A DNA stretch of 64,000 bases from Paracoccus saliphilus (lineage in GTDB: Bacteria; Pseudomonadota; Alphaproteobacteria; Rhodobacterales; Rhodobacteraceae), in assembly GCF_028553805.1 (NCBI RefSeq), contig NZ_CP067140.1, positions 3,038,001-3,102,000 on the forward strand. Reading direction: 5' to 3'. Numbering within the stretch: position 1 is the stretch's first letter; each line of letters opens with the position of its first letter. Below, piece after piece: positions 21,620-40,403 of this stretch. The translations under genes were made by a program, and so were the position numbers. The notes under the pieces were generated by a model. That model had not been told where the DNA came from and searched no databases. It saw nothing but the letters and a program-made list of their open reading frames with translations.

Positions 21620-21725
21620 AGCAGCTTGCGAAGCTGTCCGCGCTGGATTTTCACGCCGAGTCCATGCTCGCATTTTGTATCATTGCCAATCTCCTCAATA
21701 TCCGGACCACAGGAAACAACACGAG

Positions 21726-21772
21726 GAATGGCTGGGATGTGGGACCGACCGAAGAACCGTGGTAGCGGCGAA
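21726..21772 (+). repeat. 47-bp direct repeat, copy 1
   Basis: This sequence recurs at 26271-26317 with about three mismatches, in the same orientation. It begins GAATGGCTGGGATGTGGGAC. The two copies bracket a 4.5-kb segment with the first winged-helix regulator and two secreted-protein genes. Confidence 0.75.
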
Positions 21773-22294: not shown

Positions 22295-23899
22295 TCACCG
22301 ACGAGATCCCCCATATGAAGAATGATAAACAAAGCTGTTCAGTCCACTGATGCCATGATTATTGGCTGGAGAACCGGCCGTTGACGCCACAAGCTCGGGG
22401 AAGCGCCTTGCGATTTCCGAGGCAATGGAGTCGCTTCCGTGGTGTCTCTGAAGATGGTGCACGAAACCCTTTAAGACATTCTGTTGATGTTCATGCTGCT
22501 GGAACTGCCTCGCCCAGGCCCTAAACATATAACGTGTCAGATGCTGGCCATCTTCATGTGTCATCGTTGCAAACATGTTTTCGGCATCTGCGCAAAGTTG
22601 CCTGGCCTTCGGTGGAACAAATAAGAGACCGAACGGGCCTCTATTCACCGGGGTAATACTGTGCAGATCAATGACGGAATTATAGGCGGCGGTCCGGTTC
22701 TCTCCGGCCATTAATGCGAATATCTTCAAAATGAGCAGATGGATGTGAAATTTCGAGTTAGGTTCGATCATACTGATCGCTTTATCATAGAGCGTCACCG
22801 CCACATCTATCCTGCCCCTGCTGGCTTCGATCTGCCCCTTCATGGCAAAGACCTCAGCGAATGACGTGCTATTTTGAAACGCCTCATTGGTCAGCCTGCC
22901 GGCCAGCTCAAGATATCCCCGGTCGATGAATCGCAGGAGTTTCGCTATAGGCAGGAGGAGATAGGGGTTGTTATGCGCGTCAGGCAGCGCCCTGAGGGCC
23001 AAGTCCTCGATTTCATCCTCCAGGGCCGTCCATTCATCGCCGCCTGAAGGGGCGTAATGGATACTTCGGATCAGCTTTTTATATGCGTTGAGTGCGAGCA
23101 TAACTGAAATCTCCGCTTCAGCATGCTCATCCCCACGTTCCATGTGAAGGTAGGCAACGGATTCACGCCACCTCGTGCCGTCATTAAGCGACATCACGGC
23201 GGCCTCTACACCCGGATCGATCAGTAACGCATGTCGCCAAAGGGCACATGCAATCCTATGCGATAATTCATCGATACGGTCACAACCATCTTCCTGCAGC
23301 CATGTCCGCCGGAAACTCTCAATGTTCCGGCGCGACCGCCCCTCCCGGAGCACCATCGCCAAGTGAACGATGCCGTTTTCAATATGTGTGCTGACATCGA
23401 GAGTGTAATCAAGGTTATCGTGCCCATGCGGACCAGGATTCCAATTGGGTCTGGGGATAATAACCTGATGTCCGCCGGTTTCGGCTGAAATCGCCGAGGC
23501 GAGCTGACTTGGAAAATTACCGATGACATCCTGGTCGTCACTCGATCCATAGACCGGTCCGATGAGCAGAAATGCCGAGATGGGTTCAGACTTTACCGGA
23601 TCGGCGACCCAGACATATCCGTCGCCATATCTGGTGGCGATGAAGCGGGAATCCTTGGCGGTATCGCCGAGACGCTTGCGAAGCCGATTGACGAGATAAT
23701 CGATATTCCGTTCGGAAAGATTGTCGTTTTTACCACCGAGGGCTTCAAGTAATTCCGCGCGAGTTATCAAGGTGTGAGGGTGTCGCACGAACCGCAACAG
23801 GAGCGCGTGCTCCTGTCGGGACAGGCGAATTGTCGTGCCGTCCTCACGTTTCGCAGTGAGCATATCCGGCTGAAAGATGAGATCGTGATAACAAGTCAA
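22295..23899 (-). CDS. Winged-helix (OmpR/PhoB-type) regulator with TPR-like C-terminal half
   Basis: This 534-residue protein starts with a Trans_reg_C domain (residues 1-95), including LSERNIDYLVNRLRKRLGD and the wing FIATRYGDGYVWV. Residues 110-230 form a conserved region opening FLLIGPVYG, and residues 280-480 are helical and TPR-like. There is no membrane segment, unlike CadC, and no receiver domain. I chose TTG 23899 after GGGGGGCGG because its paralogue at 27498-29075 and a third remnant also start with TTG at the aligned position. A frame extending to ATG 23953 adds 18 residues absent from the paralogue. It probably controls the secreted proteins beside it. Confidence 0.8.
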   Translation of the reverse strand: MTCYHDLIFQPDMLTAKREDGTTIRLSRQEHALLLRFVRHPHTLITRAELLEALGGKNDNLSERNIDYLVNRLRKRLGDTAKDSRFIATRYGDGYVWVADPVKSEPISAFLLIGPVYGSSDDQDVIGNFPSQLASAISAETGGHQVIIPRPNWNPGPHGHDNLDYTLDVSTHIENGIVHLAMVLREGRSRRNIESFRRTWLQEDGCDRIDELSHRIACALWRHALLIDPGVEAAVMSLNDGTRWRESVAYLHMERGDEHAEAEISVMLALNAYKKLIRSIHYAPSGGDEWTALEDEIEDLALRALPDAHNNPYLLLPIAKLLRFIDRGYLELAGRLTNEAFQNSTSFAEVFAMKGQIEASRGRIDVAVTLYDKAISMIEPNSKFHIHLLILKIFALMAGENRTAAYNSVIDLHSITPVNRGPFGLLFVPPKARQLCADAENMFATMTHEDGQHLTRYMFRAWARQFQQHEHQQNVLKGFVHHLQRHHGSDSIASEIARRFPELVASTAGSPANNHGISGLNSFVYHSSYGGSRR

Positions 23900-24001
23900 A
23901 CCGCCCCCCGCATCTCGATTTTTTTGATTTCCTCGTCCCGGACTCGAAGGCAAATCAATAACAAACGGCGCGCAGCCTCATCACTCAGCCGGGGTAGAGG
24001 T

Positions 24002-24027
24002 CTGCCGTAGGAACTATCCTACGGCAG
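24002..24027. terminator. Hairpin between regulator and exported-protein gene
   Basis: An eleven-base perfect stem (CTGCCGTAGGA with TCCTACGGCAG, loop ACTA) lies 15 bases after the stop of the exported-protein gene. A U-tract is lacking on the minus strand, so it may stabilise the message end or work with Rho. Confidence 0.5.
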
Positions 24028-24041
24028 GTTGCCTATTTTTC

Positions 24042-24926
24042 CTACTGCCCAGTTCGGCAGAACTGGGCTATCCGATCATCGCTGAAAGGCGCATTACGGC
24101 TCTTTCTCGCGACGAGCTGGCCGCTGTCGTTGCGCGAGCAGGTGACATAATCCGAAATGGATGCTGCCGGTTTCTGCTCTTCTGCGAAGTTCAATGCGAT
24201 CAGATCGATCTGTCCACGGCAATGCTGCGAGATCTGCGCATCGCTGAACGGGGCATCACCGCGTTTACGTGCGACGATCTGACCGCTGTCATTCCGCGAA
24301 CATGTCACGTAATCGGTGATTGAGCCGATCGATTCAGCAGCGACCGGTGTCGCGGCAGCAAAGCTCGGTGTGGCGCTCTGCTCGCGATCCGCACGCTCCG
24401 CGGCCCGGCGCTCAGATGAGGAACATATGCTGCTGGCAGGTATGCTCCCGACCTGACGAAGCGCCGCGCAGGCGCCCGGATCTCTTGAGGCGACCATGAT
24501 CAGCGCAGCTTGCCCTTGGCCCATCTGGGCCAGTAGGCAAGCCTCGTCGACCTGCGTCACACCTCCCGAGGCACCGCCGCCGATGATCGAGATCCCGATG
24601 CTGCCCGCGAGGCCGCAGGGATGTCCCGAGCCCATTGATGGCGGCTGAACCGCAGGAGCTGACCGCACCTCGTAGGACCCGCTATATTCATGCTGGGTTC
24701 TGGTCTCGGATTGTCCGCGTTGATCGAGATAGATCTGGGCATTTGACGTGCCACCGGATGCCGAAGCAGCCGCGGAACTTTCGACATGCGCGGAACTCGA
24801 TGAGCTGGATGTCGAATTACTGCTGGTTGTCTGGGCTCCAGCCTGGGGCACCCAGATCGCCGACGCGGTCAAAATTGATATCACGGCGACAGCTGCAGGA
24901 GCGATATTTCTATTGTTGCTATACAT
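24042..24926 (-). CDS. Exported protein with duplicated C-terminal module
   Basis: This 294-residue protein of unknown function has a signal peptide (AVISILTASAIWVPQAGAQ), then a Ser-rich linker (residues 32-60). A middle region has three Cys. Two copies of a 38-residue module follow near residues 200 and 255: each has DYVTCSRNDSGQ, then VARK, APFSD and a final Cys, suggesting two small disulfide-linked units. ATG 24926 has GGGAGG at good spacing; upstream codons are not part of the gene. It is 118 bases downstream of the Gly-rich exported protein and on the same strand, possibly in one operon. Confidence 0.75.
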   Translation of the reverse strand: MYSNNRNIAPAAVAVISILTASAIWVPQAGAQTTSSNSTSSSSSSAHVESSAAASASGGTSNAQIYLDQRGQSETRTQHEYSGSYEVRSAPAVQPPSMGSGHPCGLAGSIGISIIGGGASGGVTQVDEACLLAQMGQGQAALIMVASRDPGACAALRQVGSIPASSICSSSERRAAERADREQSATPSFAAATPVAAESIGSITDYVTCSRNDSGQIVARKRGDAPFSDAQISQHCRGQIDLIALNFAEEQKPAASISDYVTCSRNDSGQLVARKSRNAPFSDDRIAQFCRTGQ

Positions 24927-25002
24927 TGTATTTTCCTCCCCTCCGAACGCAGAGGTGGTGATGAAGGCCGGAGCCGGCACGTTCGGACACCCACCCCGGC
25001 CA

Positions 25003-25030
25003 ACTTAAGCCCGGTCATGCAGGCTTAAGT
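25003..25030. terminator. Hairpin after the Gly-rich protein gene
   Basis: ACTTAAGCC and GGCTTAAGT form a nine-base perfect stem with a ten-base loop, 15 bases downstream of the Gly-rich gene. No U-tract follows on the minus strand, so termination may be partial. Confidence 0.5.
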
Positions 25031-25044
25031 CGTGACACCTGGTC

Positions 25045-25437
25045 TCAGAACATGGTGCCGAAGCCGCCGAAAGCGCCGGAGCTGCTTCCGTTCGAACCGG
25101 TATATCCACCCGTTGCGGTCGCTCCGCCAAAGCCGATGGAACCCGAGGTCGAGGTGTTGTCCACACCACCCGTGGCAGTGGTGGCCGATCCAGAACCTGA
25201 GGCAGCTCCACCGAGACCGATGGTTGTAAAACCACCAGCGACACCGGTAGAACTCAGGCTCATGGTAGTCGTATTGGACGCACCCGACACTCCACCAAAG
25301 GTTCCCGATGCGGTTTCACCACCAAAGGTGGCACCACTTTCCGAGCCGGACCAGGAACCAGTGCCGAGCACCGTATCGGCCGAAGCAACGCCCACGGTCA
25401 AAAATACCGCTGAAGCGGCAACAACAAACTTCATCAT
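25045..25437 (-). CDS. Small Gly/Ser/Thr-rich exported protein
   Basis: This 130-residue protein has a clear signal peptide (MMKFVVAASAVFLTVGVASA). The mature part is almost only Gly, Ser, Thr and Ala with scattered Phe, in short alternating blocks such as SGATFGGETASGTFGG and GGFTTIGLGG, with no Cys. This composition suits a surface, matrix or amyloid-like protein, but no family is recognised. ATG 25437 follows GAGGGGAG. It faces a long AT-rich control region upstream and the exported protein at 24042-24926 downstream. Confidence 0.72.
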   Translation of the reverse strand: MMKFVVAASAVFLTVGVASADTVLGTGSWSGSESGATFGGETASGTFGGVSGASNTTTMSLSSTGVAGGFTTIGLGGAASGSGSATTATGGVDNTSTSGSIGFGGATATGGYTGSNGSSSGAFGGFGTMF

Positions 25438-25512
25438 TTGATTATCTCCCCTCTCTGGAACCGACCCAATGTCGTTCCAAGGAAATATGAGTAGCAATAA
25501 ACCGCCTAGCAA

Positions 25513-25930
25513 TCAATTAAATTTAGCAAATAACCGCTCAAGAAATAATTCATTTTAAATCAATGAATTAAATATATATCTTTAGAATTAATCTCGAAAT
25601 TTTTGACATCTAAATATTGGTCAACATATCTGTCTATATATTAATAATAATTAAAAGAAATTGATAGAATTTACCGAAGAGTCAAAAAATTTTCTCGGCC
25701 AAAACGCCCCGACCGATCCCAACTCCAATTATTGATGCAACATTGACTATGGCAAATTTGCAATTAAATACGAATTTGCATAAAATGCAAACACTATGTA
25801 GGGATTTATTCGCAGGGATTGTAATTTAACTATTCCAAATTAATCGAATCAAATAATATGCATGGCATTTATTGGGTTTTTGGAATAAAATTCAACCTCA
25901 CAGGAAAACCAAATATTCTACGTGAGAATC
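25513..25930. promoter_or_regulatory. Long AT-rich upstream region of the Gly-rich gene
   Basis: Over 400 bases are strikingly AT-rich against GC-rich neighbours, with no gene. ACCAAATATT at 25908-25917 and AAATATTGGT at 25612-25621 match halves of the palindrome ACCAAATATTGGT found before the large autotransporter. It may hold regulator and silencer sites. Confidence 0.45.
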
Positions 25931-25965
25931 ATCAGCTGGAACTGATTCGCGCTTTCAACCATTCG

Positions 25966-26219
25966 GTATGCCATGTTCCGAAACAACATCGGTGTTCCGC
26001 TCGATGTGATCCAGGGTAATCGACAGCTTGTCCACCGCCCCCTCCTGCGAATCTTCGATGTCCCCCAAGAGCAACTGATCGCTCAAATAGCTTTCCAATG
26101 CCTGCTGGTTCTTCCGTGTTCATTATCCCGATCGCTTGCAGAGATTTCTGTATGACCGCAAGAATGCGTAGTCGTGCCGGATCGCGCTCGGTAGCCATTT
26201 CTGGCCAAAAATCAGTCAT
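25966..26219 (-). pseudogene. Frameshifted small gene of unknown family
   Basis: The first part reads MTDFWPEMATERDPARLRIL then IQKSLQAIGIMNTEE. Beyond about 26110 the natural continuation is in another frame (RKNQQALESYLSDQLLLGD, then a stretch ending EHGIPNG and a stop). The unshifted frame becomes low-complexity Gly/Arg sequence. One indel near 26105-26125 would restore a protein of about 84 residues. I do not recognise it. Confidence 0.4.
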
Positions 26220-26270
26220 TCATGATCCTCACCGATAAGAGCTGATCTGTGCCGCAGTGTCCGGCACTGG

Positions 26271-26317
26271 GAATGGCTGGGATGTGGGACCGACCGAGGA
26301 ACCATGGCAGCGGCGAA
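26271..26317 (+). repeat. 47-bp direct repeat, copy 2
   Basis: It matches 21726-21772 with about 44 of 47 identical bases, same orientation. The copies flank the regulator and the two exported-protein genes, which may mark a past duplication or integration. Confidence 0.75.
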
Positions 26318-26432
26318 GTGCTATCCCCGGATTACCGACAGGCAATGAAACCCCGGCACAATGATTTCAGCCAGGACAATATGAGCAAGCCCGGCGACTG
26401 GACGGCGGCGAGCCCCGGGCTCTGTGGACGGT

Positions 26433-26745
26433 TTAGGCGGTGCCGCGCTTGATCCATTGCGGCGTGATGGTCCGGAATTCCGACGGTCCGGCGAGCAGTG
26501 CCGCCGTTTCCTGCTCATACGCCTTAAACCATGGCTGCTTGACGAAATCATCCGTTGCTGCTTCGCCGGTGAAGAGTTGATAAGCTACGATCGCATCGGG
26601 ATCGGTGTCATCAAATCCGTAGACATATGCGATCTGGCCATCTGCACGCTCGATATAGGAGCGCATATTTCTCCCATATTTGCTTGACCTCTTCGCGCTT
26701 GCCGGGTTGCGCCCTGTGCCTGATGTAAAGTGCTTTCATGCTCAT
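26433..26745 (-). pseudogene. Frameshifted antibiotic-biosynthesis-monooxygenase (ABM) domain protein
   Basis: From ATG 26745 (after GGAG) the frame reads MSMKALYIRHRAQPGKREEV then KQIWEKYA, the usual start of putative quinol monooxygenases. Around 26664 the continuation switches to another frame: RSYIERADGQIAYVYGFDD, then DPDAIVAYQLF and a normal C-terminus ending WIKRGTA. The two halves together match the length of about 100 residues of the family, so one small indel has broken the gene. Confidence 0.65.
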
Positions 26746-26803
26746 GATTCATCTCCTCGAACGTTACGGCGTTTGCCGCTGATGGTCGGGCGTCGTGCCC
26801 ATA

Positions 26804-27031
26804 TTACATGACGATCGAGCAGCGCCGTTTGTGACATGGGCAGAATTCCGGTCGATCAAAACAGTGCCAATCAGGTTCGCCAACAATCAGCCGGATCGCG
26901 TCCCAGCGGTGCAGATAGGCGCCCAGCTCGGCGGCACCCCACAGGACCAGGGCGATATTCTTAGAGAAATTGGCTAAGCTCTGGACGCGCAGGTTGTGGC
27001 TTTTGACATGATCAATCTCGGTTTTCGACAT
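26804..27031 (-). CDS. Small hypothetical protein
   Basis: A 75-residue frame starting MSKTEIDHVKSHNLRVQSLA after AAGGA, with a hydrophobic stretch NIALVLWGAAELGAYLH and a Cys-rich end (CFDRPEFCPCHKRRC). No family recognised. The ribosome site and non-random start support it, but the C-terminal half could be out of frame. Confidence 0.3.
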   Translation of the reverse strand: MSKTEIDHVKSHNLRVQSLANFSKNIALVLWGAAELGAYLHRWDAIRLIVGEPDWHCFDRPEFCPCHKRRCSIVM

Positions 27032-27152
27032 ATTTCCTTATGTTATCAGTTTATTACGCGATAACTGTAAGTTGCCAGACCGTCGCTGTCCGGTGGGATT
27101 TGGTGCATGTATCGGGAGTTCGACGGGAATGACCGAAGCCTTAGAAAATCCC

Positions 27153-27190
27153 GTCAGACCGATGGGGATGCGTTTGGTGCCCGAGGTAGG
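27153..27190. repeat. Degenerate repeat fragment, copy 1
   Basis: A stretch of about 36 bases (GTCAGACCGATGGGGATGCG onward) matches 36713-36750 with few mismatches. Both copies sit in gene-poor, decayed DNA, likely relics of one mobile element. Confidence 0.5.
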
Positions 27191-27497
27191 ATGGACCTAG
27201 CCCTCCATCCCTTCACAGCCGTCGCGACAAGCCAAAACGGTCAGACAGATTCATCCAAGCACTGTGACTAGGAAACTTCGGCCCCACGGACGTACCACCA
27301 TTTATCCAGGGGTCCGCGCAGGCCGGCAAGGAAATGCGCTGAGTAACGGTAGTGGTTGCCCGGTAGTGTTGTGACAGCTGGATAGCTCTTGCCCCGACCG
27401 GCGCCCATGTCTGCCGCTCCGGCTTTATCCTGCACAGGCGCAATCTTGTGTGCGGAGGGAATAATGAAAGGCCACGCCCGGCGGCACTTACGACAAC

Positions 27498-29075
27498 TTA
27501 TCCATCGCTTGACTTCAGTTCCGGAAACCTCCCGGCGATTTCCGGATCGATCGCCTCACCCCCATGAATGCGTGTGAGATGTGAGATGATCCCGTGCAGG
27601 ATATTGCGCTGATGGTTCCGGCGTTGGAACTGGCGCGCGGAGATCATGAACAGGTATCGGGTCAGATGCCGGCCGATCTCCGGAGGTATCGCAGTGAGGG
27701 CATGCTCCAGGGGAGCCGGAAGCTGCCGGGATTTCGGTGAGATGAGAAACAGGCCCGCTGTGGCCTGCGACGCTGGATCGATATCACGAAGCTGAATGGC
27801 GATGTGATCCACTGCGCCCCGCCGATCCGCCGCCATCAAGGTAACGGCTTTCAGGATCAGAAGGTAGATGTGAAACTGGGAGCCCGGCCCGGACAGCTCG
27901 ATTGCCTTGTCATAGAACGATACCGCTTCATCGATCTCGCCCCTGCTTGCCGCGATCTGCGCCTTCATGGAAAATGCGGCCGCGAAAGCGGTGCTGTCGT
28001 TAAAGGCCTTCTCGGTCAGCCGATGGGCAAGTTCCAGATAGCCCCGGTCGATGAAGCGCAGCAGCTTCGCGATTGCGAGGAGCAGTTGCGGATGCTCATA
28101 GGCATCCGGCAATGCGCGCAGGCAAAGCGCCTCGATCTCCGTTTCAAGGACCTGCCATTCCCCCTCCCCGATGGGAGCCGTGTGAACCTCTCCGAGGCTC
28201 TGGAGCAGCCTGGCATAATGATTGAGGGCCAGCATGACGGAGATATCGGGATTTTCGCGATCCTCCTCATGGGCCTTCCGAAGGCGCTCCGCATTCTCCC
28301 GCCAACTGGTGAGATCATTGGTCAGCAGCACCGCCGCATCATGCATGCGCAGATGCATGGGGCGATCGCCGGGCTGATCCGCGCCCGGACCGGGAAGCGC
28401 GTTATGGCGCCAGACCGCTTCGGTCAGCTCCTGCGCCAGCTGTCTGACATGGTTCGGTTTCTGACCGCGGGGGAGTTTCCGCCGAAAACTCTGGACAACC
28501 TGGCGAGAGCGCCCTTCGCGCAGAACGATCGCCAGGTGCAGATGCTCGGCATCCATATGGGTGCTGATTTCGAGCGAGTAATCCAGCTTGTCGGGATTTT
28601 CCGGGTTATGTCGCCAATCCGGCCGGCAGAGGACGGTTTTCTGCCCGTCGAGCACCGCTCTGATCTCGGAGGTGAGAAGATGCGGAAACCCGTTCAGGGC
28701 ATTCCGATCATCATCGAGGCCGAATACAGGTCCGATCAGCAGGAATGCCGACAGGGCTTCTTCGCTCTCCGGCTCCACCGCCCAATAATAGCCCTCGCCA
28801 TATTGGGTTGCGATAAACCGGGGTTTTCTGGCCGACTCGCCGAGGCGTTTTCGCAGCCTGTTGACGAGATAATCGATATTCCGTTCGGAGAGTGCACCGG
28901 TATTGTCGTCTCCGAGCGCTTCAAGCAATTGTGAACGCGTCACCAATGTCTGCGGGGTTTTCACGAGACGCAGGAGCAGGGCGCGCTCAAGCCGGGTCAG
29001 GCGAATGACCGCGCCGTCATCCTTTTGTGCCGTCAGCATGTCAGGCTGAAAAACGAGATCCTTGTAGCGAATCAA
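27498..29075 (-). CDS. Winged-helix (OmpR/PhoB-type) regulator with TPR-like C-terminal half, paralogue 2
   Basis: This 525-residue paralogue of the 22295-23899 protein shares the Trans_reg_C domain (LSERNIDYLVNRLRKRLG, wing FIATQYGEGYYW), the FLLIGPVFG region, and the helical C-terminal half with PLLAIAKLL-like repeats (LLLAIAKLLRFIDRGYLELA). It starts with TTG after AAGGGA, as do its relatives. It is divergent from the broken autotransporter gene at 29401, over a control region that is repeated before the intact autotransporter. It is thus likely to be the specific regulator of a surface protein, sensing an unknown signal in the cytoplasm. Confidence 0.82.
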   Translation of the reverse strand: MIRYKDLVFQPDMLTAQKDDGAVIRLTRLERALLLRLVKTPQTLVTRSQLLEALGDDNTGALSERNIDYLVNRLRKRLGESARKPRFIATQYGEGYYWAVEPESEEALSAFLLIGPVFGLDDDRNALNGFPHLLTSEIRAVLDGQKTVLCRPDWRHNPENPDKLDYSLEISTHMDAEHLHLAIVLREGRSRQVVQSFRRKLPRGQKPNHVRQLAQELTEAVWRHNALPGPGADQPGDRPMHLRMHDAAVLLTNDLTSWRENAERLRKAHEEDRENPDISVMLALNHYARLLQSLGEVHTAPIGEGEWQVLETEIEALCLRALPDAYEHPQLLLAIAKLLRFIDRGYLELAHRLTEKAFNDSTAFAAAFSMKAQIAASRGEIDEAVSFYDKAIELSGPGSQFHIYLLILKAVTLMAADRRGAVDHIAIQLRDIDPASQATAGLFLISPKSRQLPAPLEHALTAIPPEIGRHLTRYLFMISARQFQRRNHQRNILHGIISHLTRIHGGEAIDPEIAGRFPELKSSDG

Positions 29076-29244
29076 GATATTCCCTTTTCAAATTTCGGGT
29101 CGATCAAAACATCGGGGGAACTGTTTCAATGTGAAGGTAACCGCCAATTCTCCCCGTTGAAAAGACACTTATCCACAGGAGACGTTATTTTATTTCCGAA
29201 AAACCTCGAAAATTCAGCTCAACCAAATACTGGTGCGAGATTCT
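29032..29244. repeat. Duplicated regulator/autotransporter control region, copy 1
   Basis: It spans the first codons of the minus-strand regulator and the upstream region. It resembles 31141-31352. Shared landmarks are the regulator start, TTATCCACA (29169-29177) and the near-palindrome ACCAAATACTGGT (29222-29234), in the same order and spacing. Confidence 0.75.
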
Positions 29245-29400
29245 TTTGTTATAGCTGCACAGTGAAGAGCGTTCCGTTTCAGGCATGTTTCATTTGTCCT
29301 GACAGGAAGCTCGATCGTGGTCGTTCTGTTTAGCCCTCGTGCGGACAGAGCGAAGGTTCCGAGTGTCTTGTGTGACCGCAAAGGAAAACAAGGGGGCCTT

Positions 29401-30948
29401 ATGAACCGTTCACCGAAAGACGCCAGCGCACGCCGCCTGCAGCTTCTGCTCGCCGGGACAGCTCTTCTGCTTCACCCGGCGCCCATGGCGGCCCAGGCAC
29501 AGACACTGGGTCATGCGACTGGTGGCGGTGGCGGGGGATCGAATGATATCAGCGGCGGTGGCGGCGCGGGTATCGTAATCACGGATGGCGCCGCGATATC
29601 GCTCGATCTTGGTGGCTCGGGCATAATTGGCGACACTACGGTTGCGGATGGCGGTGTGCTTGCACCGGGCAGCTCGATCGGCATGCTCACGGTGAACGGC
29701 GCCCTGTCGCTCGCTTCGGGATCGATCCTCGATTACGAGATTGGCAGTCCCGGAACAACCGCCGACCTCGGCACCAGCGACCGGATCGAAGTGACCGGGG
29801 AGCTTGCGCTGAACGGCACGCTGGATCTGGCGCAAAGCGATGATGCCGCAGACGGCACGGCAGGTCTCGGCTATTACCGGTTAATAACCTATGGGGCACG
29901 CTCCCTGGTGACGGGCTGACGGTCGGGGAAACGGGCGCGATCGGTGATCCGGCCGATTATGAAATCCAGACTGGTGACAACAATGTCGATCTGTTTATAG
30001 CCGCTCCCGGCGACGATAGTCTGCAGCAGTGGCAGGGCGGTGATGGCACTTGGGATGCAACGAACGCGAATGACGCCGGAAACGCCTCCACATGGACCAA
30101 TAGCGGCATACTCATTGTCAGCCATTCGGCACCGGCAGGCTCACCATATCGGACGGTGGACTTGTGACCTCAGGGACAGCCTCTCTTGGCGACGGCTGGG
30201 CTGAGGCATCGGGCGCGATCGCGCTGAACAGCAGCGGTGTTCTCGCCACCGGCCTTGTCAAGAATAGTCTAGATTCCGGCACGCTCTCGTTCGATGGCAG
30301 GCATTCTGCGCGCCACCGCAAATAAGGCTGATTTCATGCTCGGTTTCGACGAAGGCGATGTGACGATCGACGCAGGTCTGACCAAGACCGAGGCTGGCAC
30401 GCTGGTGCTGTCCGGGCGGAATTCCTACCAGGATGGTACAATGATCGACGCGGGTATCGTGCAGGTCTCGGCCGATTACGATGCGAGCAGCCTGCAGGCC
30501 TTTGGCGAGTTGGGATATCGGATCGAGACCGCGACGGTGTCCTATGAGCCCTTTGTCGGGCTTGCCCATCTTCGCCTGAAAACGGACGGGTTCACGGAGC
30601 GAGGCGGCACTGCATGTCGCGGAACAGCAGACCGAGATCAGCTTCGCCACGCTTGGCGTCCGGGCCTCTACGGATATCCGTTTCGAGGGAGTGGCCGGCA
30701 CCCTGCGTGGCATGCTGGACTGGCGTCACGCCTTTGGCGATACCACGCCGCTGTCGCGTCATGCCTTCTCGGCCGGTGACGCCTTCACCATCGCCGGCGT
30801 GCCCATCGCCGAGGACGCGGCGGTCATCGAAGCCGGTATCGACCTGAACCTCTCGGACACCGCCAGGCTCGGCCTGTCCTACCAGGGACAGTTCGGAAGC
30901 GGCGTTCAGGAGAGCGGCCTTAAGGCCGATCTGAAGGTCAGGTTCTGA
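29401..30948 (+). pseudogene. Decayed autotransporter gene
   Basis: From ATG 29401 the protein has a signal peptide (LLLAGTALLLHPAPMAAQAQ), a Gly-rich start, and passenger repeats typical of autotransporters (VADGGVLAPGSSIGMLTVNG, then LDYEIGSPGTTADLG). At about 29890 the frame shifts; the next piece has GDGTWDATNAND and stops near 30167. A third piece (30305-30600) has KTEAGTLVLSG and barrel-like strands, and a fourth frame (30609-30948) has FEGVAGTLRGMLDWRHAFGD and ends with a barrel-type KVRF. At least three frame changes and a large internal loss (most of the passenger) mean that no outer-membrane protein can be made. Confidence 0.8.
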
Positions 30949-31104
30949 CAGGGGATGTTCAGAATTCAGAACCTGGCTGATAGATCGCGGCGACCAAGGA
31001 TGAATGATGTCAGGACCGTTGGGCTAAATCTTTTCGGTTCTGGCACATTTTATCCGGCTAATCGATATCCCGCCGGGAGATCGCGACGGAATTATTGCCC
31101 CTGA

Positions 31105-31179
31105 TTGCTGCGAATGATGATGCCGTTATGTTTTCTTGTTGTCGGCATCTCCGGCTGAAAAACGAGACCCTTGTAGCGA
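31105..31179 (-). pseudogene. 5' stub of a third winged-helix regulator
   Basis: From a TTG preceded by AAAAGGAAATGCG the minus strand reads IRYKGLVFQPEMPTTRK, then HNGIIIRSN and a stop. The first 23 codons align with the regulator at 27498-29075 (IRYKDLVFQPDMLT). The rest of the gene has been replaced by the end of the preceding autotransporter copy. Confidence 0.75.
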
Positions 31180-31352
31180 ATCAACGCATTTCCTTTTCGC
31201 TTTATGACACCTTTGATAGGCATTGAGTTATTCTTCGTTCAGGTTAATCGGGCATTTCCGTGTTTGGGGAGGCACTTATCCACAGAAAAAGTAAAATTAT
31301 TCCCGAAAAAGCGCGAAGATTCGGCTCAACCAAATATTGGTGCGAGATTCTG
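31141..31352. repeat. Duplicated regulator/autotransporter control region, copy 2
   Basis: It resembles 29032-29244. It has TTATCCACA at 31276-31284 and the palindrome ACCAAATATTGGT at 31329-31341, about 140 bases before the autotransporter start. Confidence 0.75.
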
Positions 31353-31482
31353 GTGATACAGTCCCTCCGGACTTAAACTTCGCGTCAAGGCACTGTAAGT
31401 AACCTGTTCCGATCTTTCCCGATAACGAGATGCTGACGCGGACGGTCTTCGATTGTGAAAATCGAATATCTTGGGGGATGAT

Positions 31483-34400
31483 ATGAAGCGGACAAACATT
31501 TCCGGGTATTTTTCTGAATTGGGGAGCGCGAAAGAATCACCCCGGAAGGTCCTTAGAACATGGTTGTTGGTGATTTTTACCATCATGATTTCCAGCCTCG
31601 GGATGTCGGCACCTGCCCAGGCGCAGGTCATCAATATTACCTCGAGCCCCACGAGCTTTAGCACCGAGGGTGAGACGATCACCTTCACCTATGAACTGGA
31701 GAACCTGGGTTCATATTACCTGACCAGCATCGACACGATCACCCCGACCAATCCGGACCCCGGCGGCGGCCCCGGCGTCACGATGGGCGCCTGCGAATCG
31801 TTCCCGAACGGCGAGCTTGCACCGAATGAGACAGTGACCTGCACAGGCACTTACCAGATTACCGCCAGCAATATCATGAGCGGGCAACTGACCCATCAGA
31901 TTTCCATGGATGGGCAACGTATTGGCGGCAGCTGGAACGTCACCAGCAGCAATTTCACCATGCAGCTTGTCGGAGGTGGCCCGACCTCGACATCCGTAGA
32001 GTCCCTCACCAATCCCAGCGAACTCGGTGAGGACGCGACATTCCGCGCAACTGTTGCCTCATTCGGGTGCAATGCGGGGCTGGCCCCGCAAGGCACTGTG
32101 ACTTTCACGGTCGGGTCGGTTACCTCCTCCGCGATTGCGGTTACACCGATCAGCCCCATTTCCGGGCAGGGGACAGCGGAGTTTACCACCAACAGCCTTC
32201 CCGCGGGTTCTTATGGGGTCAGTGCCGCTTTTACGCCTTCCGGAGCGGATAATTGCGGGCCGAGCAGCGGCACCGCCTCTACAAATCACATCGTCAACGA
32301 ACCTCTGCCCGCGCTTCCGGTGGTCAATAATACCAATACGGTCGTGGATGCGAATAGCACCGACAACCCTGTCACGCTCGATATTTCCGGAGAGGATATT
32401 CAATCCGTTGCCGTTGCCTCGGGGCCATCCAACGGCACGGCGACAGTCAGCGGGACGGATATCGTCTACACACCGGATTCCGGCTTCTCGGGTAGGGACA
32501 GTTTCACCTACACCGCAACCAATGCCGCCGGCACCAGCGAAGCGGCCACCGCGACGATTAATGTGGAGGCTGCAGATCCGCCGCCGACCGTTACTTTCGC
32601 GGACGTTCCGGAAATCGTGAACAGTTCGTTTCAGGTAACTTTCTCCTTCAGTGAGGCCGTAGACAACCTCACAATGGGCGATCTTGTTGTCACAAACGGG
32701 CTTCTCAATTTCCTGTCTTATTCCGGAGGCGTTTACTCGGCGCATATTACCCCGACAGCCGATGGCGCGGTGACAATCGACATCCCTGCGGGCGTGACGC
32801 AGGATAGTGCTGGAAATGACAACCTGGCCGCACAGGCCTTGACCTTCTATGACGGAACGGCACCTGTGCCCCTAATGATGCTGTCATCTGACACGCAGCC
32901 AAGGATAATCCAGGTCGATGTGACATTTACGGAAAGCGTAATCGGGCTGGATGCCAGCGACTTTCGGATCACCAATGGTTCGCTTGTCAGCCTATCGGGA
33001 TCTGACTTTACCTATAAGCTTGCTGTTGCACCAAATGGCACCGGTGACGTGATCATCGATTTGAATTCGGCAGCCGTTCAGGATGCCGCCGGTAATGACA
33101 GCGCAAGAGCCACCCTTACAGTTGATGCCCCTGTCATCTCGATCTCCGTGTCAGACCTGCCGGTCGGAAAGGTGAATTCTGAGTATGAGACGGTGAGCCT
33201 GTCGGCATCGGGCGGAACTGGACCCTATGCCTTCGATCTCTCCTCGGGCCGCCTGCCAGATGGCATCACGCTGTCGAATGACGGCAAGCTGACAGGCACG
33301 CCGACAGAGGATGGGAATTTTTCGCTGACGTTCAGGGCAACAGATGCCTCCGGCTTCACAGGTATTGCCGAATCCAGTCTGACCGTCGAACCTTCGAGAG
33401 CGGTTATAGTGACATGGGATGTGTCTGGCGGTGGAAATGTTTGGGCATTCACACCGACCGGGGCTAACCCTGGCGGGGAGGTAACAAGCCCAGCGGTCAT
33501 CACCGATACGAGTGTTCATTTTGATCTGGACTCCGACAGCGGATACGTTTTCGAAGGCGCCAGCGACAATTGTGGTGGGCACCTTTCTGCTGGTGGCAGC
33601 TTCTGGCAATTGCCTAACCCTCTTGCGATTGACTGTCATGTGGATTTTACCTTCACCCCTGCAAACGCTCCGACTGTCAGCAATACAGATACACCTGTTA
33701 ACGCAGGTAGTACCGACAATCCGGTGATCCTCGATATCGAGGGTCTTGATATCGAGTCCGTTGCCATCGCATCGGGGCCGTCCAACGGCGTGGCGACGAT
33801 CAGCGGGACAGACATCACTTACACGCCAAACGTTGGATTCTTCGGCACGGACAGCTTCACCTACACCGCGACCAATGCGACAGGCACCAGCGCACCTGCC
33901 ACCGCGACAATCACCGTCAAGGCGCCCGATATCACGCTCGGACCGGGCAGCCTTCCGGCGGGTACCGGCGGCGCGCCCTACGGCCCGGTAACCATGACCG
34001 CCGATGGTGGTTCGGGAGATTATACTTTCTCCACCACGGATACCCTTCCTGACGGGATCTCGCTTGCCACGGATGGCACGCTTTCTGGCAGTCCAACCGA
34101 GGATGGCAGTTTCACCTTTACCGTGACGGCAAAAGACGAGAACGGCTTCACCGGCCAGCACGACTTCACTTTGTCCATAGATACGCCCGAGATCACGCTT
34201 GATCCGGACGGCCTGCCGGACGCCGTGGCAGGCAAGCCATATGAAGCCCTGACCTTCACCGCAGCGGGCGGCAATGCGCCCTATGGCTTTACCCTCGACG
34301 GAACCGTGCCGCAGGGCATGAGCCTTGAAGGCGGCAAGCTCTCCGGGACGCCAACCGAAGCGGGGAATTTCCAGTTCAACCTGATCGCAGAGGACCGGGA

Positions 34401-36567
34401 CGGGTTCACCGGGCAGCGCGGCTATACGCTCAGTGTGAGCGCCCCGGACATCTCGCTTTCGCCGGAGGCATTGCCGGAAGCCACGGCCTATGCCGAGTAT
34501 ACTCAGGCTTTCACGGTTAGTGGCGGCAAGGGACCCTATAGCTACCAGCTCACCGAGGGCCGTTTGCCGGACGGTATGACCTTCGAGGACGGAACCCTCT
34601 CAGGCACGCCCCTCGAAGCCGGCGATTTCCCGTTCAGCCTGATGGCAACCGACGGGAACGGTTTTACCATCGCCGGGGATTATACCCTCAGCGTGATCGT
34701 TCCGGGAATTGCCCTGACGCCCGAGAACCTGCCCGATGGGCTGGCGGGAACGGAATACGCGCCGGTCAGCTTCGCTGCCGAAGGCGGCAAGACGCCCTAC
34801 AGCTTCGAACTGGAAGGTGATCTGCCCGAGGGAATGATCTTCCGGAACCGCGCACTGTCTGGAACGCCGACCGAAGCCGGTGAATTCATGTTTACCGTGC
34901 ATGCCACGGATCAGGGCGATTTCACCGGACAGCGGGAATACACGCTGACCATCGCGGCGCCGGACCTTGCTCTAACTCCGGAAGCCTTGCCCGAAGGCCG
35001 GGTGAACTCCGCCTATAGCGCATCGCTTCAGGCAGAGGGCGGCACCGCCCCCTACGCGTTCACGGTGGCACGGGGGCAATTGCCCGAGGGGCTGAGCCTC
35101 GCCGAGGACGGCACCCTGTCTGGCACGCCGCTCGATCCCGGCAGTTTCGAGGTCACCATGACAGCCACCGACCGCTACGGCTTCACCGGCAGCCGCGTCT
35201 ACGAGATTGCCATCGAGGACATCACCCTGCCGCAGCCCCGGAACCATGAACTGACCGTCATGGCCGGAACCAGCGGGACGGTCGACCTCACCCGCGGCGC
35301 GTCGGGCGGCCCCTTCATCGATGCTGCGATCGTGGCGAATCCGGCGGATGAGGCCGGCACCGCGCGGATTGCGCGCGAAGGCGGCAGTCATATCCTGCAT
35401 TTCTCGGCTTCGGGGATCTACGCGGGCACGACCAGCCTGAGCTATACGCTCTCCAATGCCGATGGCATCTCCGACCCGGCGAGCGTGACGATCACCGTGG
35501 TAGCGCGGCCCGATCCCTCGCTGGACCCGGAGGTCATCGGGCTGGTCCGGGCCCAGACCGAGACGGCAAAACGGTTCGCCAAGGCGCAGATCAGGAATTT
35601 CAGCCAGCGGCTCGAACAACTGCATGACGAGGGCACGCGGCGGCGCAATTCCATCGTACTCAATCTGGTTGCCCAAAGCTCACGCCATGACAGTGACTCC
35701 CTCTCCCTTCGCGGCCCCGAGCGCTTCGGCAACCAAAGCAGTGACCTGGCTTTCTGGAGTGGCGGCTATGTCAATTTCGGCTCCAGCGACGATGACGGGA
35801 TCGATCTCGACCATACGCTTGTTGGCATAAGCGCCGGGGCCGATTATCGGTTCACGCCGAAATTCACCGCCGGGCTGGGGCTGGGTTACGGCCGCGATGT
35901 CACCGATATCGGCAATAACGGCACCGAAAGCCGGGCCAGGGCCATCTCGATGGCGGCCTATGGCAGCTACCGGCCAAAACCCGGCTTCTTCATTGACGGA
36001 TTGGCCGGTTACAGTTCGCTGGACTTCGACAGCAAGCGTTACGTGACATCGACAGGCGACATGGCGACAGGAACGCGTGGCGGCGAGCAGCTCTTCGCCG
36101 CATTGACGGCAGGCTATGAGCATCGCCGCGATGGATTGCTGATCTCGCCCTATGGACGGCTATCCGGATCGCGCTCCACGCTCGACATGTTCACCGAGGA
36201 AGGCGGCGGGGTCTATAACCTCAGCTATGATGAACAGGTCGTCGAAACCCTCTCCGGCACGCTGGGCTTGCGCTTCGAGCATTCGCGGCCAATGGATTGG
36301 GGCAACCTGACATCGCGCGCGCGGATCGAATACACCCATGAATTCGAGAATTCGAGCGAGGCGCGTATTGGTTACGCGGATCTTGGAACCTTCCCCTATG
36401 CGATCGATGTCGAGGGCTATTCACGCGATGAACTGGCGATCGGTCTTGGCCTCGATGCGCAGATCGGCGAGTTCTGGACCCTGGGCCTTGATTACCGCAC
36501 CGCCTTCGGCACCGACGGAGACAGTCGCGATCAGGCCGTCGCTGTGAAACTGGATGTCAGGTTCTGA
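31483..36567 (+). CDS. Large autotransporter-like protein with He_PIG/Ig-like repeats
   Basis: This 1694-residue protein has a long signal region (about residues 1-48, hydrophobic core WLLVIFTIMISSLGM, end SAPAQAQ). Residues 50-540 hold several Ig/cadherin-like domains, including two copies of TDNPV...GTDIxYTP (near 295 and 745). About six He_PIG-type repeats of roughly 87 residues start near 552, 816, 903, 990, 1075 and 1161, each with a version of SGTPTEAGxFxFxxxATD. A linker rich in charged helix (FAKAQIRNFSQRLEQLHDEG) precedes a C-terminal beta-barrel (about 1415-1694) ending VKLDVRF with terminal Phe. It should be anchored in the outer membrane with the repeats outside, as an adhesin. 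I prefer ATG 31483 after GGGGGATG. Confidence 0.85.
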   Translation: MKRTNISGYFSELGSAKESPRKVLRTWLLVIFTIMISSLGMSAPAQAQVINITSSPTSFSTEGETITFTYELENLGSYYLTSIDTITPTNPDPGGGPGVTMGACESFPNGELAPNETVTCTGTYQITASNIMSGQLTHQISMDGQRIGGSWNVTSSNFTMQLVGGGPTSTSVESLTNPSELGEDATFRATVASFGCNAGLAPQGTVTFTVGSVTSSAIAVTPISPISGQGTAEFTTNSLPAGSYGVSAAFTPSGADNCGPSSGTASTNHIVNEPLPALPVVNNTNTVVDANSTDNPVTLDISGEDIQSVAVASGPSNGTATVSGTDIVYTPDSGFSGRDSFTYTATNAAGTSEAATATINVEAADPPPTVTFADVPEIVNSSFQVTFSFSEAVDNLTMGDLVVTNGLLNFLSYSGGVYSAHITPTADGAVTIDIPAGVTQDSAGNDNLAAQALTFYDGTAPVPLMMLSSDTQPRIIQVDVTFTESVIGLDASDFRITNGSLVSLSGSDFTYKLAVAPNGTGDVIIDLNSAAVQDAAGNDSARATLTVDAPVISISVSDLPVGKVNSEYETVSLSASGGTGPYAFDLSSGRLPDGITLSNDGKLTGTPTEDGNFSLTFRATDASGFTGIAESSLTVEPSRAVIVTWDVSGGGNVWAFTPTGANPGGEVTSPAVITDTSVHFDLDSDSGYVFEGASDNCGGHLSAGGSFWQLPNPLAIDCHVDFTFTPANAPTVSNTDTPVNAGSTDNPVILDIEGLDIESVAIASGPSNGVATISGTDITYTPNVGFFGTDSFTYTATNATGTSAPATATITVKAPDITLGPGSLPAGTGGAPYGPVTMTADGGSGDYTFSTTDTLPDGISLATDGTLSGSPTEDGSFTFTVTAKDENGFTGQHDFTLSIDTPEITLDPDGLPDAVAGKPYEALTFTAAGGNAPYGFTLDGTVPQGMSLEGGKLSGTPTEAGNFQFNLIAEDRDGFTGQRGYTLSVSAPDISLSPEALPEATAYAEYTQAFTVSGGKGPYSYQLTEGRLPDGMTFEDGTLSGTPLEAGDFPFSLMATDGNGFTIAGDYTLSVIVPGIALTPENLPDGLAGTEYAPVSFAAEGGKTPYSFELEGDLPEGMIFRNRALSGTPTEAGEFMFTVHATDQGDFTGQREYTLTIAAPDLALTPEALPEGRVNSAYSASLQAEGGTAPYAFTVARGQLPEGLSLAEDGTLSGTPLDPGSFEVTMTATDRYGFTGSRVYEIAIEDITLPQPRNHELTVMAGTSGTVDLTRGASGGPFIDAAIVANPADEAGTARIAREGGSHILHFSASGIYAGTTSLSYTLSNADGISDPASVTITVVARPDPSLDPEVIGLVRAQTETAKRFAKAQIRNFSQRLEQLHDEGTRRRNSIVLNLVAQSSRHDSDSLSLRGPERFGNQSSDLAFWSGGYVNFGSSDDDGIDLDHTLVGISAGADYRFTPKFTAGLGLGYGRDVTDIGNNGTESRARAISMAAYGSYRPKPGFFIDGLAGYSSLDFDSKRYVTSTGDMATGTRGGEQLFAALTAGYEHRRDGLLISPYGRLSGSRSTLDMFTEEGGGVYNLSYDEQVVETLSGTLGLRFEHSRPMDWGNLTSRARIEYTHEFENSSEARIGYADLGTFPYAIDVEGYSRDELAIGLGLDAQIGEFWTLGLDYRTAFGTDGDSRDQAVAVKLDVRF

Positions 36568-37183: not shown

Positions 37184-37931
37184 TTATCTTTTCGCACCCC
37201 AGGGGCGCTTTCTATGGGCCATGCCTTGGCCAAGCCATCCAGCCCGATCATTCATACACGCAGCTATCCCTATGAACATGGTTGCTGGGGCTAGTAGACG
37301 ACGCCCACCCCGTAGGATCAACGTAGCTCTTGGAAGGTCGTCAGCCTTTCTCGCCACGATTGCAGCCTTGCCAAAGGAACCTCCAGTAAGCGGGCCGCAA
37401 GACCGTGCGGAGAGTCGGATCAGCTGCGCGACTCGTCGCGCGGTTTCGTGCTTCTCAGTCCAGATCGGGGACAACACCTGCAATATTTCCGGCTGACCGA
37501 TATCCGAAACTGGCATTCGGCCGATCTTGGGAAAGGCATAGTCAGCGAGTGTGTTGATCCACTGCTGTCCGTGTTTCGGGTTCTCCCAGATTGGCAGGCG
37601 ATCAATATGTACTTGCCGTACCACCTCTTCAAAACACGGCACTTCCTGATCCTTATGGTATTTCGGATTAAGGCCCTGCTTAGCGAGGAGACGATATTCC
37701 AAGGCGCGTTCGCGAGCTACGTTGAGCCTCACCACGTCCGCCGCCGAGACCGAAATCGGTGCGGAGCGGCTTTACCTGCCGATTCCGGTGCCCTCCACCG
37801 TCACGCGCACGATCCAGCGACGCGCGCCGGATGGATCGACCACCAGATAGAGCCCGTGGCCGTCGCCGTGCCTGCCAGGGCCGAGCGTTCGGACTAGATT
37901 CTTCGTCAACTTTCCCGACGAGTAGGCCATA
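37184..37931 (-). pseudogene. Broken tyrosine-recombinase (phage-type integrase) gene
   Basis: From ATG 37931 the first frame reads MAYSSGKLTKNLVRTLGPG, then GLYLVVDPSGARRWIVRVTV, the standard N-terminal DUF4102 domain of island integrases, and stops at about 37774. A frame change leads to ARERALEYRLLAKQGLNP and the core-binding domain (HGQQWINTLADYAFPKIGRM, ETARRVAQLIR). The catalytic domain with the R-H-R-Y tetrad is missing. The gene was once a complete integrase entering the island here and is now dead. Confidence 0.75.
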
Positions 37932-38327: not shown

Positions 38328-40403
38328 ATGAACGCTCCTTTCAAGCAGACAGAACGGCTGGGCCGCCTGATCACGGCTTTGGGCGAAAATGTTCTGGTTC
38401 TGCTGCGCTTCGAGGGAAGCGATTATCTCAACGATCTGTTCGAATACCGGGTCGAAGCCCTTGCCACGCGCGACGATCTCGACTTCGATACCCTGATCGG
38501 CACCCATGCGACGGTTGAAATCGAGGCGCATGAAGTGATGCGGCCCTTCGATGGTATCGTCACCTCGGCGCAATATTCCGGCGTGGGCGAGAACGGTCAT
38601 ATCTACACCCTGACCCTGCGCCCGTGGTTCTGGCTGGCGGGCAAGCGACGCAACTACCGGATTTTCCATAGCAAGCGTGTGGATCAGATTCTACGGGAAC
38701 TGCTGTCGGATTATGGCGTGTTCAGCAATCCGCATCTGGAGATCCGGATCAGCAACCAATACGAGGAACTGGAATATACGGTCCAGCATGGGGTCTCGGA
38801 CCTGGAATTTGCGCGCCGCCAGATGGAGCGGCACGGGATCAGCTTTCATTTCCGGCATGAGAAGGGCAGTCACACGCTCGTTCTGACCGATGACGAGCTG
38901 GCGCATGAGGAGATCGGCGAGATCCCCTTCAAGCGCTATGACGGCCATCACCAGTATGAATTCGAGCACTTCTGGGACTGGAAGCCGGAGCGGAACTTTA
39001 CCACCGGGGCGATCTTTCAGACCGACTATAATTTCAAGCATCCGACCCAGAAGATGGACACTTGGCAGGCGAGCGATGCGCAATACGCCTTCGGCCATGT
39101 CGAGAGTTTCGATTATCCAGGCGATTATCTCTCTGAAGCCCCCGGAAAGATCGTCACGCGGATGCGTCAGCGGCAGGAGCGAGGCGCGGATCGCCGCAAT
39201 CGTGCTGTGGGAGACTGCGTGAGCCTGGCTTCGGGACAGCGTGTTACATTGGGCGGCGACAAGGTGCCGGGGCATGGCGAGACCTATCTCTGCCTCTCGG
39301 CCACGCATCGCTTTGTCAGTGAATCCTACGGTTCCGGCGGAGAGGGCAGCGACGGTTACAGCTATTCCGGCTCCTGGGTGCTGATGCCCGATACCGCGCC
39401 GATGGTGCCTCCGAAACGGACACCGCTATCGCGCGTCTACGGTCCGCAGACTGCCATGGTGGTGGGTGAAGGTGAAATCGACTGCGACGAGCATGGCCGG
39501 ATACTTGTGCGCTTCCATTGGGATCTGGAAGAGGCGTTCTCGATGCGCTGCCGGGTCAGCCAATCATGGGCCAGCCAGGGCTGGGGCGGGATGGTGATCC
39601 CTCGGATCGGCATGGAGGTGGTGGTGGAATTCCTCGAAGGCGATCCCGACAAACCGTTGGTGACCGGCTGCGTCTATAACGGCAGGAACACGACCCCCTA
39701 TGACTTGCCCAGGCACAAGACCAAATCAGTGTTCCGCTCGGATACTCACCAAGGCGACGGATTCAACGAATTCACCTTCGAGGATCAGGCGGGCGAAGAA
39801 AAAATCTACCTACATGCCGAGAAGGACCACGAACTTCATATCGAGAACAACCGCGCCAAACGCGTGGATCGCAACCAGTCTGAAAGCGTCGGACACAACA
39901 AGTCCATCGAGGTCGGTAACAACCATCACGAGATAATCGGTGGCAACATGACCCTCATGGTCGGGCCGAACAAGCTACAGAACGCAGTCACATCGGCTTT
40001 CCATAAATTCACCGGTGCCATCGGCGATCTCGCCAATAAGTTGGGTCTTCCGGATTTTATGAACATGGGAGAAGGCAATCTCGTCATCGGTGTAGCCAAG
40101 AACAAGGCCGAGACGGTGATGGTGAGTTCCAACGAGATTGTCGGCGCAGCTAAGACCGTGACTGTGGGAGGAGGCTACCAGCTTACAGTGCAGGGCATTC
40201 GCAATGAATCAGTTTTGCTCGGAGCCTACGAAGAGGTCGGCCAGAATAAGGTGGTCGTGGCCGGCAAACGCCTCGAGATGGTCTGTGGGAAGTCAAAGTT
40301 CCAGATGAACGAAGACGGCACAATCGTGCTTGAGGGAATCGACATCAAGGTTTCCGGCTCGAGCAAGGTCGCTGTCAATGGCGGCCGCATCGACCTTAAC
40401 TGA
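38328..40403 (+). CDS. vgrG: Type VI secretion system tip protein VgrG (TssI)
   Basis: This 691-residue protein matches VgrG along its length: gp27-like part (residues 1-370) with PFDGIVTSAQYSG and SHTLVLTDDELAH; the OB-fold/gp5-like part (about 370-470) with GRILVRFHWDLEE and SQSWASQGWGGMVIPRIGMEVVVEFLEGDPDKPLVTG, the strongest family signature; and a beta-helix stalk (480-691) with FRSDTHQGDGFNEFTFEDQAGEEKIYLHAEKD. VgrG trimers form the spike of the T6SS and carry effectors. There is no C-terminal enzymatic extension, so cargo is probably the downstream effector. No T6SS structural genes are in the window, so this is an orphan cargo cluster. Confidence 0.9.
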   Translation: MNAPFKQTERLGRLITALGENVLVLLRFEGSDYLNDLFEYRVEALATRDDLDFDTLIGTHATVEIEAHEVMRPFDGIVTSAQYSGVGENGHIYTLTLRPWFWLAGKRRNYRIFHSKRVDQILRELLSDYGVFSNPHLEIRISNQYEELEYTVQHGVSDLEFARRQMERHGISFHFRHEKGSHTLVLTDDELAHEEIGEIPFKRYDGHHQYEFEHFWDWKPERNFTTGAIFQTDYNFKHPTQKMDTWQASDAQYAFGHVESFDYPGDYLSEAPGKIVTRMRQRQERGADRRNRAVGDCVSLASGQRVTLGGDKVPGHGETYLCLSATHRFVSESYGSGGEGSDGYSYSGSWVLMPDTAPMVPPKRTPLSRVYGPQTAMVVGEGEIDCDEHGRILVRFHWDLEEAFSMRCRVSQSWASQGWGGMVIPRIGMEVVVEFLEGDPDKPLVTGCVYNGRNTTPYDLPRHKTKSVFRSDTHQGDGFNEFTFEDQAGEEKIYLHAEKDHELHIENNRAKRVDRNQSESVGHNKSIEVGNNHHEIIGGNMTLMVGPNKLQNAVTSAFHKFTGAIGDLANKLGLPDFMNMGEGNLVIGVAKNKAETVMVSSNEIVGAAKTVTVGGGYQLTVQGIRNESVLLGAYEEVGQNKVVVAGKRLEMVCGKSKFQMNEDGTIVLEGIDIKVSGSSKVAVNGGRIDLN

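Follow-up and report, generated by a model that had tools for sequence, protein, structure and literature searches.

The described regulator that most resembles the one studied here is HilA of Salmonella. In the sections of the published accounts drawn on here, HilA has an N-terminal winged helix (wHTH) and no membrane span (PMC5693285), carries TPR (PMC3574062) and drives the surface adhesin locus SPI4/SiiE (PMC6272769). The regulator R2 of Paracoccus saliphilus shares this architecture as those sections present it, with the wHTH first, no membrane span and a TPR half, the likeness being one of fold class (PMC5693285, PMC3574062). The initial annotation had held that a soluble one-component regulator with a long TPR-like half and dedicated surface proteins was not a system that could be named, which does not hold for the architecture, as an OmpR/ToxR-class wHTH, a TPR half and no membrane span are what these accounts give for HilA. 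HilA drives several secretion loci, whereas here one regulator stands with one adjacent partner gene and, within its own genome, with two exact sites, and no HilA model was among the NCBIfam families listed (the best 25 of 28 for the paralogue R1 and 25 of 25 for R2).

ToxR, CadC and TcpP are membrane-bound, whereas R2 has no membrane span and its sensor half is a cytoplasmic TPR domain. The RRNPP TPR peptide receptors have a DNA reader that differs from that of R2, and, although Rap and NprR matched the R2 structure model, they were among many TPR proteins of similar Z, unrelated ones matching equally well. The surface proteins of the locus share their barrel and passenger repeats with the classical and Ig-repeat autotransporters (PF03797 with PATR or He_PIG) and are ordinary members of these; compared with them, the dedicated regulator and its DNA element are the new part. 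A wHTH/TPR regulator paired with an autotransporter was not found described in the open-access papers searched. The locus picked out in the initial annotation is real and exceeds chance, and it bears out in part the reading given there. The parts are ordinary, and what is new is the pairing, together with a candidate operator common to regulator branches that have unrelated exported partners.

We propose, with a probability of roughly 0.7, that these are HilA-like one-component regulators of the soluble kind, that a candidate operator ties each of them to a single exported protein, and that R2 drives the autotransporter gene at 31483 in trans. Such a regulator begins with a winged helix of the OmpR/ToxR class, continues with an alpha/beta domain and ends in a TPR solenoid, and it would most likely bind its operator as a head-to-tail pair, on two 11-bp half-sites upstream of the partner gene, the first half being CAAATAYT and the second specific to the branch. 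Each regulator would serve one exported protein, an autotransporter in the R2 branch, and we infer that the partner would be switched on, rather than repressed, when the TPR half meets a cytoplasmic ligand or protein. In the divergent arrangement, the same site would probably also set the level of the regulator itself. In the window (the whole stretch of 64,000 nucleotides that was analysed), two such units are adjacent, one with R2 and a broken autotransporter and the other with an intact autotransporter and a regulator stub. As the candidate operator beside the stub survives, R2 probably serves both sites and therefore probably drives the 31483 gene in trans.

R2 (27498-29075, minus strand; Pfam, structure model and fold matches) is a soluble wHTH, alpha/beta and TPR regulator of 525 aa with a TTG start, and R1 (22295-23953, minus strand; Pfam, family alignment and tree) is a Paracoccus-type regulator. 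Both carry Trans_reg_C at the N-terminus in the Pfam scan (E 4.8e-16 for R1 and 4.8e-15 for R2), scoring 59 and 55.8 bits, respectively, for PF00486 (OmpR-class winged-helix), for which the curated cut-off is 26.2. They are 53% identical, in agreement with the initial annotation of two paralogous regulators, and are the sole full-length matches in their own genome, where four further matches span the DNA-binding part only. The TTG starts assigned to them are plausible, with homology beginning at 29075 in R2, but in R1 it begins at 23899, the likely start, and not at 23953. The R2 model (pLDDT 88.5) matches the OmpR-class wHTH fold when compared with VIA-align; TPR matches in the Pfam scan were weak, sub-threshold and confined to R2.

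A two-component response regulator was ruled out, as no receiver domain family was found in R1 or R2 by the Pfam scan and the wHTH begins at residue 1-25, leaving no N-terminal receiver. The membrane-bound ToxR/CadC type was ruled out by the missing membrane span after the wHTH in a hydropathy scan, the highest 19-residue value being 1.30 in R2 and 1.10 in R1. This value is at most 1.6 in 21 of 22 family members, and in the remaining one (L065) it is 1.84, in a stretch that is modelled as a strand in R2.

Both autotransporter genes of the window are on the plus strand. The gene at 31483-36567 encodes an intact He_PIG-type autotransporter of 1694 aa (Pfam, homology), with a PF03797 barrel (E 5.4e-49), Ig-like repeats and the C-terminus DVRF, and it belongs to type Va by its C-terminal PF03797 barrel with a final F. 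The other, at 29401-30948, is a broken PATR-type autotransporter that changes frame along its length (Pfam, homology, three-frame reading); its homology-supported pieces shift frame at least two times, and five segments were distinguished by eye in the three-frame reading. Genome-wide, PF03797 was found in these two genes and, weakly (E 4.5e-7), at one position of the second contig.

Between them lies the remnant of a third regulator, previously described as a 23-codon stub at 31105-31179. The DNA alignment (29001-29244 against 31110-31351, 70.6% identical over 248 bp, E 4.6e-24) confirms that the remnant is real, but its TTG start aligns at 31184, giving a span of 31092-31184 (minus strand) with 30 codons, of which 25 align with R2. 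The similarity to R2 extends through the promoter up to 31351. The stub is where a divergent regulator would be expected, as had been suggested, since Mesorhizobium sp. J18 has an intact R2-like regulator (68%) there, beside a 52%-identical autotransporter. Over the 25 codons, the stub shares 60 of 75 bases with R2, with 11 replacement and 4 silent changes, and fewer, 51 of 75, with the Mesorhizobium regulator; over the same stretch, replacement and silent changes number 10 and 7 between R2 and Mesorhizobium, and 7 and 12 between Mesorhizobium and R1. The changes in the stub are consistent with loss of constraint, although the counts are small. A stretch around 31058-31093 may be one more decayed fragment of the third regulator, but this is suggestive only, as 17 of 500 shuffles score as high. 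The stub and the frame-broken gene together bear out the proposed loss of one regulator and decay of one autotransporter.

The tandem duplication of a whole regulator-autotransporter unit, which the initial annotation considered a plausible origin of the units, is not supported. The 248-bp likeness between the start and promoter regions of R2 and the stub would fit such a duplication, as would the stub being closer to R2 than to Mesorhizobium. However, in a tree of 21 regulators, R1 fell within the Paracoccus clade (100/100) and a sister relationship of R1 and R2 was rejected (p-AU 7e-62), while a grouping of R2 with all Paracoccus R1-type regulators (p-AU 0.228) or with Mesorhizobium (p-AU 0.194) was not. 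R1 is no local copy of R2. The autotransporters are also of different types, each with relatives in other genera. The intact one is 52% identical to the Mesorhizobium autotransporter facing the regulator and 55% to the second one of Chelativorans, both He_PIG types, but 27% to the PATR types matched by the broken one, which are those of Chelativorans, Pelagibacterium, Halomonas and G955. Duplication of the whole unit is therefore improbable, and the separate relatives of the autotransporters, together with the tree, indicate two different units side by side. These units seem to share a duplicated or nearly related regulator-promoter end, the only regions in which they are alike, and a duplication of that end alone may have occurred.

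Upstream of both window autotransporters, and not noted in the initial annotation, is a 28-bp element, CAAATAYTGGTGCGAGATTNTTTTGNTA, which is our candidate operator. Copy 1 (29224-29251, plus strand) lies in the sense of the broken autotransporter, and copy 2 (31331-31358, plus strand), upstream of the intact one, is identical to it at 24 of 28 positions. The element recurs between R2-type regulators and the divergent gene in alpha-, beta- and gammaproteobacteria, at nine sites in eight genomes (it was first seen in seven sites, G955 and G855 being added later). Over the nine sites, 20 of the 28 columns are invariant, with a mean of 1.46 bits compared to 0.16 and 0.07 in the flanks, and about six bases 5' of the element are partly conserved. 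When the inner 19-mer was searched with up to two mismatches in 21 family-bearing genomes (G1177 and G1178 were excluded, and their loci L079 and L080 scanned separately), it gave 10 matches in eight genomes, which were the ones carrying an R2-type regulator. Nine of these matches are at regulator units and the tenth, with two mismatches, is elsewhere in G476; a reversed control gave three matches in all. A longer exact form of the element occurs in 1 of 385 genomes of the class, which is the genome studied here. The letters of the element were not found described in the open-access papers searched.

Both window promoters also contain a perfect DnaA-box-like word, TTATCCACA, at 29169-29177 and 31276-31284, 55 bases before the 28-bp element; this word was not found in the other R2-type intergenic regions compared. 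In sigma-54 sites the GG and GC steps are 10 apart. Such a site was rejected here, the steps being 14 apart by eye.

The first half of the element, CAAATAYT, is found in two other branches of the regulator family: four of four DUF1194 loci and four of four protease-autotransporter loci carry it on the sense strand, ahead of the gene for the exported partner. In a best-match scan of other loci, five from other branches begin with CAAATAYT at the right place, and its expectation is 0.018 per 570-base region (31 in 988,008 strand-bases, found sites included). In L048, L079, L080, L051 and L012 it occurs once in the whole examined locus. The regulator is not divergent in L013, L052 and L053, where the element is before the partner, so the element follows the target. 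The second half is branch-specific, with GGTGCGAGATT in the R2 type and, for example, CAGCAAACAATT or CTGACAACAATC in its place elsewhere.

These variants bear on another explanation, in which the regulator acts elsewhere and the element serves as a core promoter or is recognised by some other conserved host factor. The element ends in TGNTA, which by eye is like an extended -10, so that TTTTGNTA, at its 3' end, might belong to a promoter, and in six R2-type regions the listed ORF starts 92-177 bases downstream of it, both of which would suit a core promoter. A general site would, however, be expected elsewhere in the genomes, whereas all but one of the 19-mer matches were at these units and the exception is at the level of the reversed control, and the variants track the regulator branches despite unrelated partner genes. 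We therefore consider this explanation rather unlikely. Still less likely, to the point of being very improbable, is that the element works at the RNA level, within the leader of the partner's transcript, as a leader peptide, a small-RNA site or a structure site. Depending on where the transcript starts, the element may sit in the 5' leader, but a leader peptide was rejected by eye, as no reading frame continues over the element, with unconserved flanks and stops that differ between loci, and most third positions are invariant in every frame. An Rfam element was likewise rejected, the one match in 24000-31600 (E 0.11) being under the gathering score.

OmpR-class proteins bind 11-bp direct repeats. 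The second half of the protease-branch element is a repeat of the first, 11 bases on, with 25 of 32 matches (P 0.00045 at this lag, and 0.004 over lags 8-14). In neither the R2 branch (P 0.083, and 0.43 over lags) nor the DUF1194 branch (0.095 and 0.53) did the repeat reach significance, and for the R2-type element on its own a direct repeat was rejected (lag 11, P 0.048; lags 10-12, P 0.14). This non-significance weighs against our main reading, as do the seven of 28 loci without a partner and the R1 branch without CAAATAYT, both described below. The motif was also absent upstream of the second Chelativorans autotransporter and from the examined stretches of L062-L064 and L015-L017, and neither of its two occurrences in L054 is upstream of the regulator. 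A looser form of the element, CAAATAAT / CAAATAATTGTGCGACAATTGTCGATTA, is located at L049:8859-8886 and precedes a 511-aa ORF next to the second regulator-like gene of Chelativorans.

The regulator family is rare. It was found in 4 of 148 relatives of the genome studied here, itself counted (E 1e-20), and, at E 1e-90 with the centre genome counted, in 4/247 genomes of a Mesorhizobium family sample, 5/136 of the Pelagibacterium family, 4/250 of a Bordetella family sample, 3/103 of the Hyphomicrobium family and 1/250 of a Halomonas family sample. A protein search gave 271 matches at E 1e-30 among 8000 scored candidates, the best 120 of the 271 being listed. We read 29 distinct loci, of which 28 were assessable (L014 was left out as its contig ends); L047 (identical to L011), L050 (identical to L012), L066 (with the ORFs of L017), H2 (a near copy of H1) and short loci were dropped before counting. 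A putative exported partner was present in 21 of the 28, comprising all 16 loci at 44% identity or more to R2 and 5 of the 12 below. The suggested link of the regulator family to secreted proteins in other genomes is thus present throughout the near family, while part of the far family lacks it.

For the eight R2-type loci, a divergent autotransporter (PF03797) was found with R2 in the window and in Mesorhizobium J18, Chelativorans, Halomonas, Pelagibacterium montanilacus and G955, and in L061 the regulator faces a 297-aa ORF with an N-terminal hydrophobic stretch and no Pfam match; the eighth, L014, stops at a contig edge. The five R1-type loci are all from Paracoccus, and both putative exported genes are upstream in each (the small partner of L011/L047 is visible in the alignment only). 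An autotransporter adjoins the regulator in four of four Martelella-type loci; the S8 protease and barrel were Pfam-scanned in L053, with which L013 and L052 share 59-69% identity, as they do between themselves, and L012 was judged by eye from its ORFs. The four DUF1194-type loci all have a divergent DUF1194 protein (L048:8798-9697, L051:3219-4145, L079:6914-7843 and L080:7205-7990), L079 and L080 having been added once L048 and L051 had shown the link, and DUF1194, a family of unknown function, thereby has a candidate regulator. In L049 the autotransporter is beside a regulator of 30% identity. No exported partner was seen in L062, L063, L064, L015, L016, L017 and L054, which were judged from ORF lists or record annotation without Pfam, except for L064, which is cut at the regulator start so that the absence is half tested.

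In G955, the regulator-autotransporter unit (L065:107-16801) is between two near-identical, oppositely oriented transposase ORFs. Its barrel ORF, as listed, opens 1.8 kb after the element, which is why no CAAATAYT appeared in the upstream scan of this locus. As the flanking ORFs presumably belong with the abundant IS481, no mobility is claimed for a composite transposon here. A viral carrier was rejected, with no 18-mer of the element found in viral contigs and none of 28 pattern-matching stretches there encoding a relative, and for a plasmid carrier there were three plasmid records only, at 32-36% identity.

The initial annotation placed the regulators beside exported or autotransporter proteins, which is correct for R2 and the stub, but the neighbours of R1 are small proteins with an N-terminal hydrophobic stretch, by which they were called exported, and not autotransporters. 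These are a putative exported partner of unknown family with a C-terminal repeat (24042-24926, minus strand) and a second, Gly/Ser-rich one (25045-25439, minus strand). The former has relatives in other Rhodobacterales (Celeribacter, Pseudooceanicola, Oceanicola). Although the recognition helix of R1 is identical to that of R2, CAAATAYT was upstream of the partner in none of four R1-type regions, and the R1 branch has a different conserved footprint upstream of its partner set, in the window a separate stretch at 25492-25537 (minus strand) without the 28-bp element. A 48-bp direct repeat, 94% identical, bounds the R1 gene set (21725-21772 and 26270-26317), as if the set had been inserted or copied. 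Downstream, a phage-type integrase fragment (Phage_int_M, 37184-37735) adjoins the intact autotransporter, followed by a VgrG-like spike protein (Phage_GPD and Gp5 domains, 38328-40403), possibly part of a type VI secretion set. The GC content is 56% at 22-34 kb and again at 36-56 kb, with 63% in between (34-36 kb), compared to 61-62% at the window edges; together with the integrase fragment, the dip is consistent with foreign DNA, although it is not proof.

More tentatively, the regulator and element could form a portable control module, passed between bacterial classes and coupled to exported proteins that are unrelated to one another, namely PATR, He_PIG and protease autotransporters and DUF1194 proteins. 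The second half-site would drift while the first stays fixed, the TPR half would sense a cytoplasmic cue tied to export, and in the window an operator would have outlived its own regulator and been taken over by that of its neighbour. We regard this extended scenario as possible, though doubtful.

When bacteria make one large surface protein, the decision is commonly attributed to global regulators. If the scenario is true, a single surface protein would have its production coupled to its own secretion by one soluble protein. As this small family offers a single regulator and partner gene along with a precise candidate operator, the targets can be named from sequence alone. The half-lost unit in an environmental Paracoccus makes trans control testable by a single gene removal, and the branches, with their differing exported partners, offer a ready-made comparison for identifying the cue to which a soluble wHTH-TPR sensor responds.
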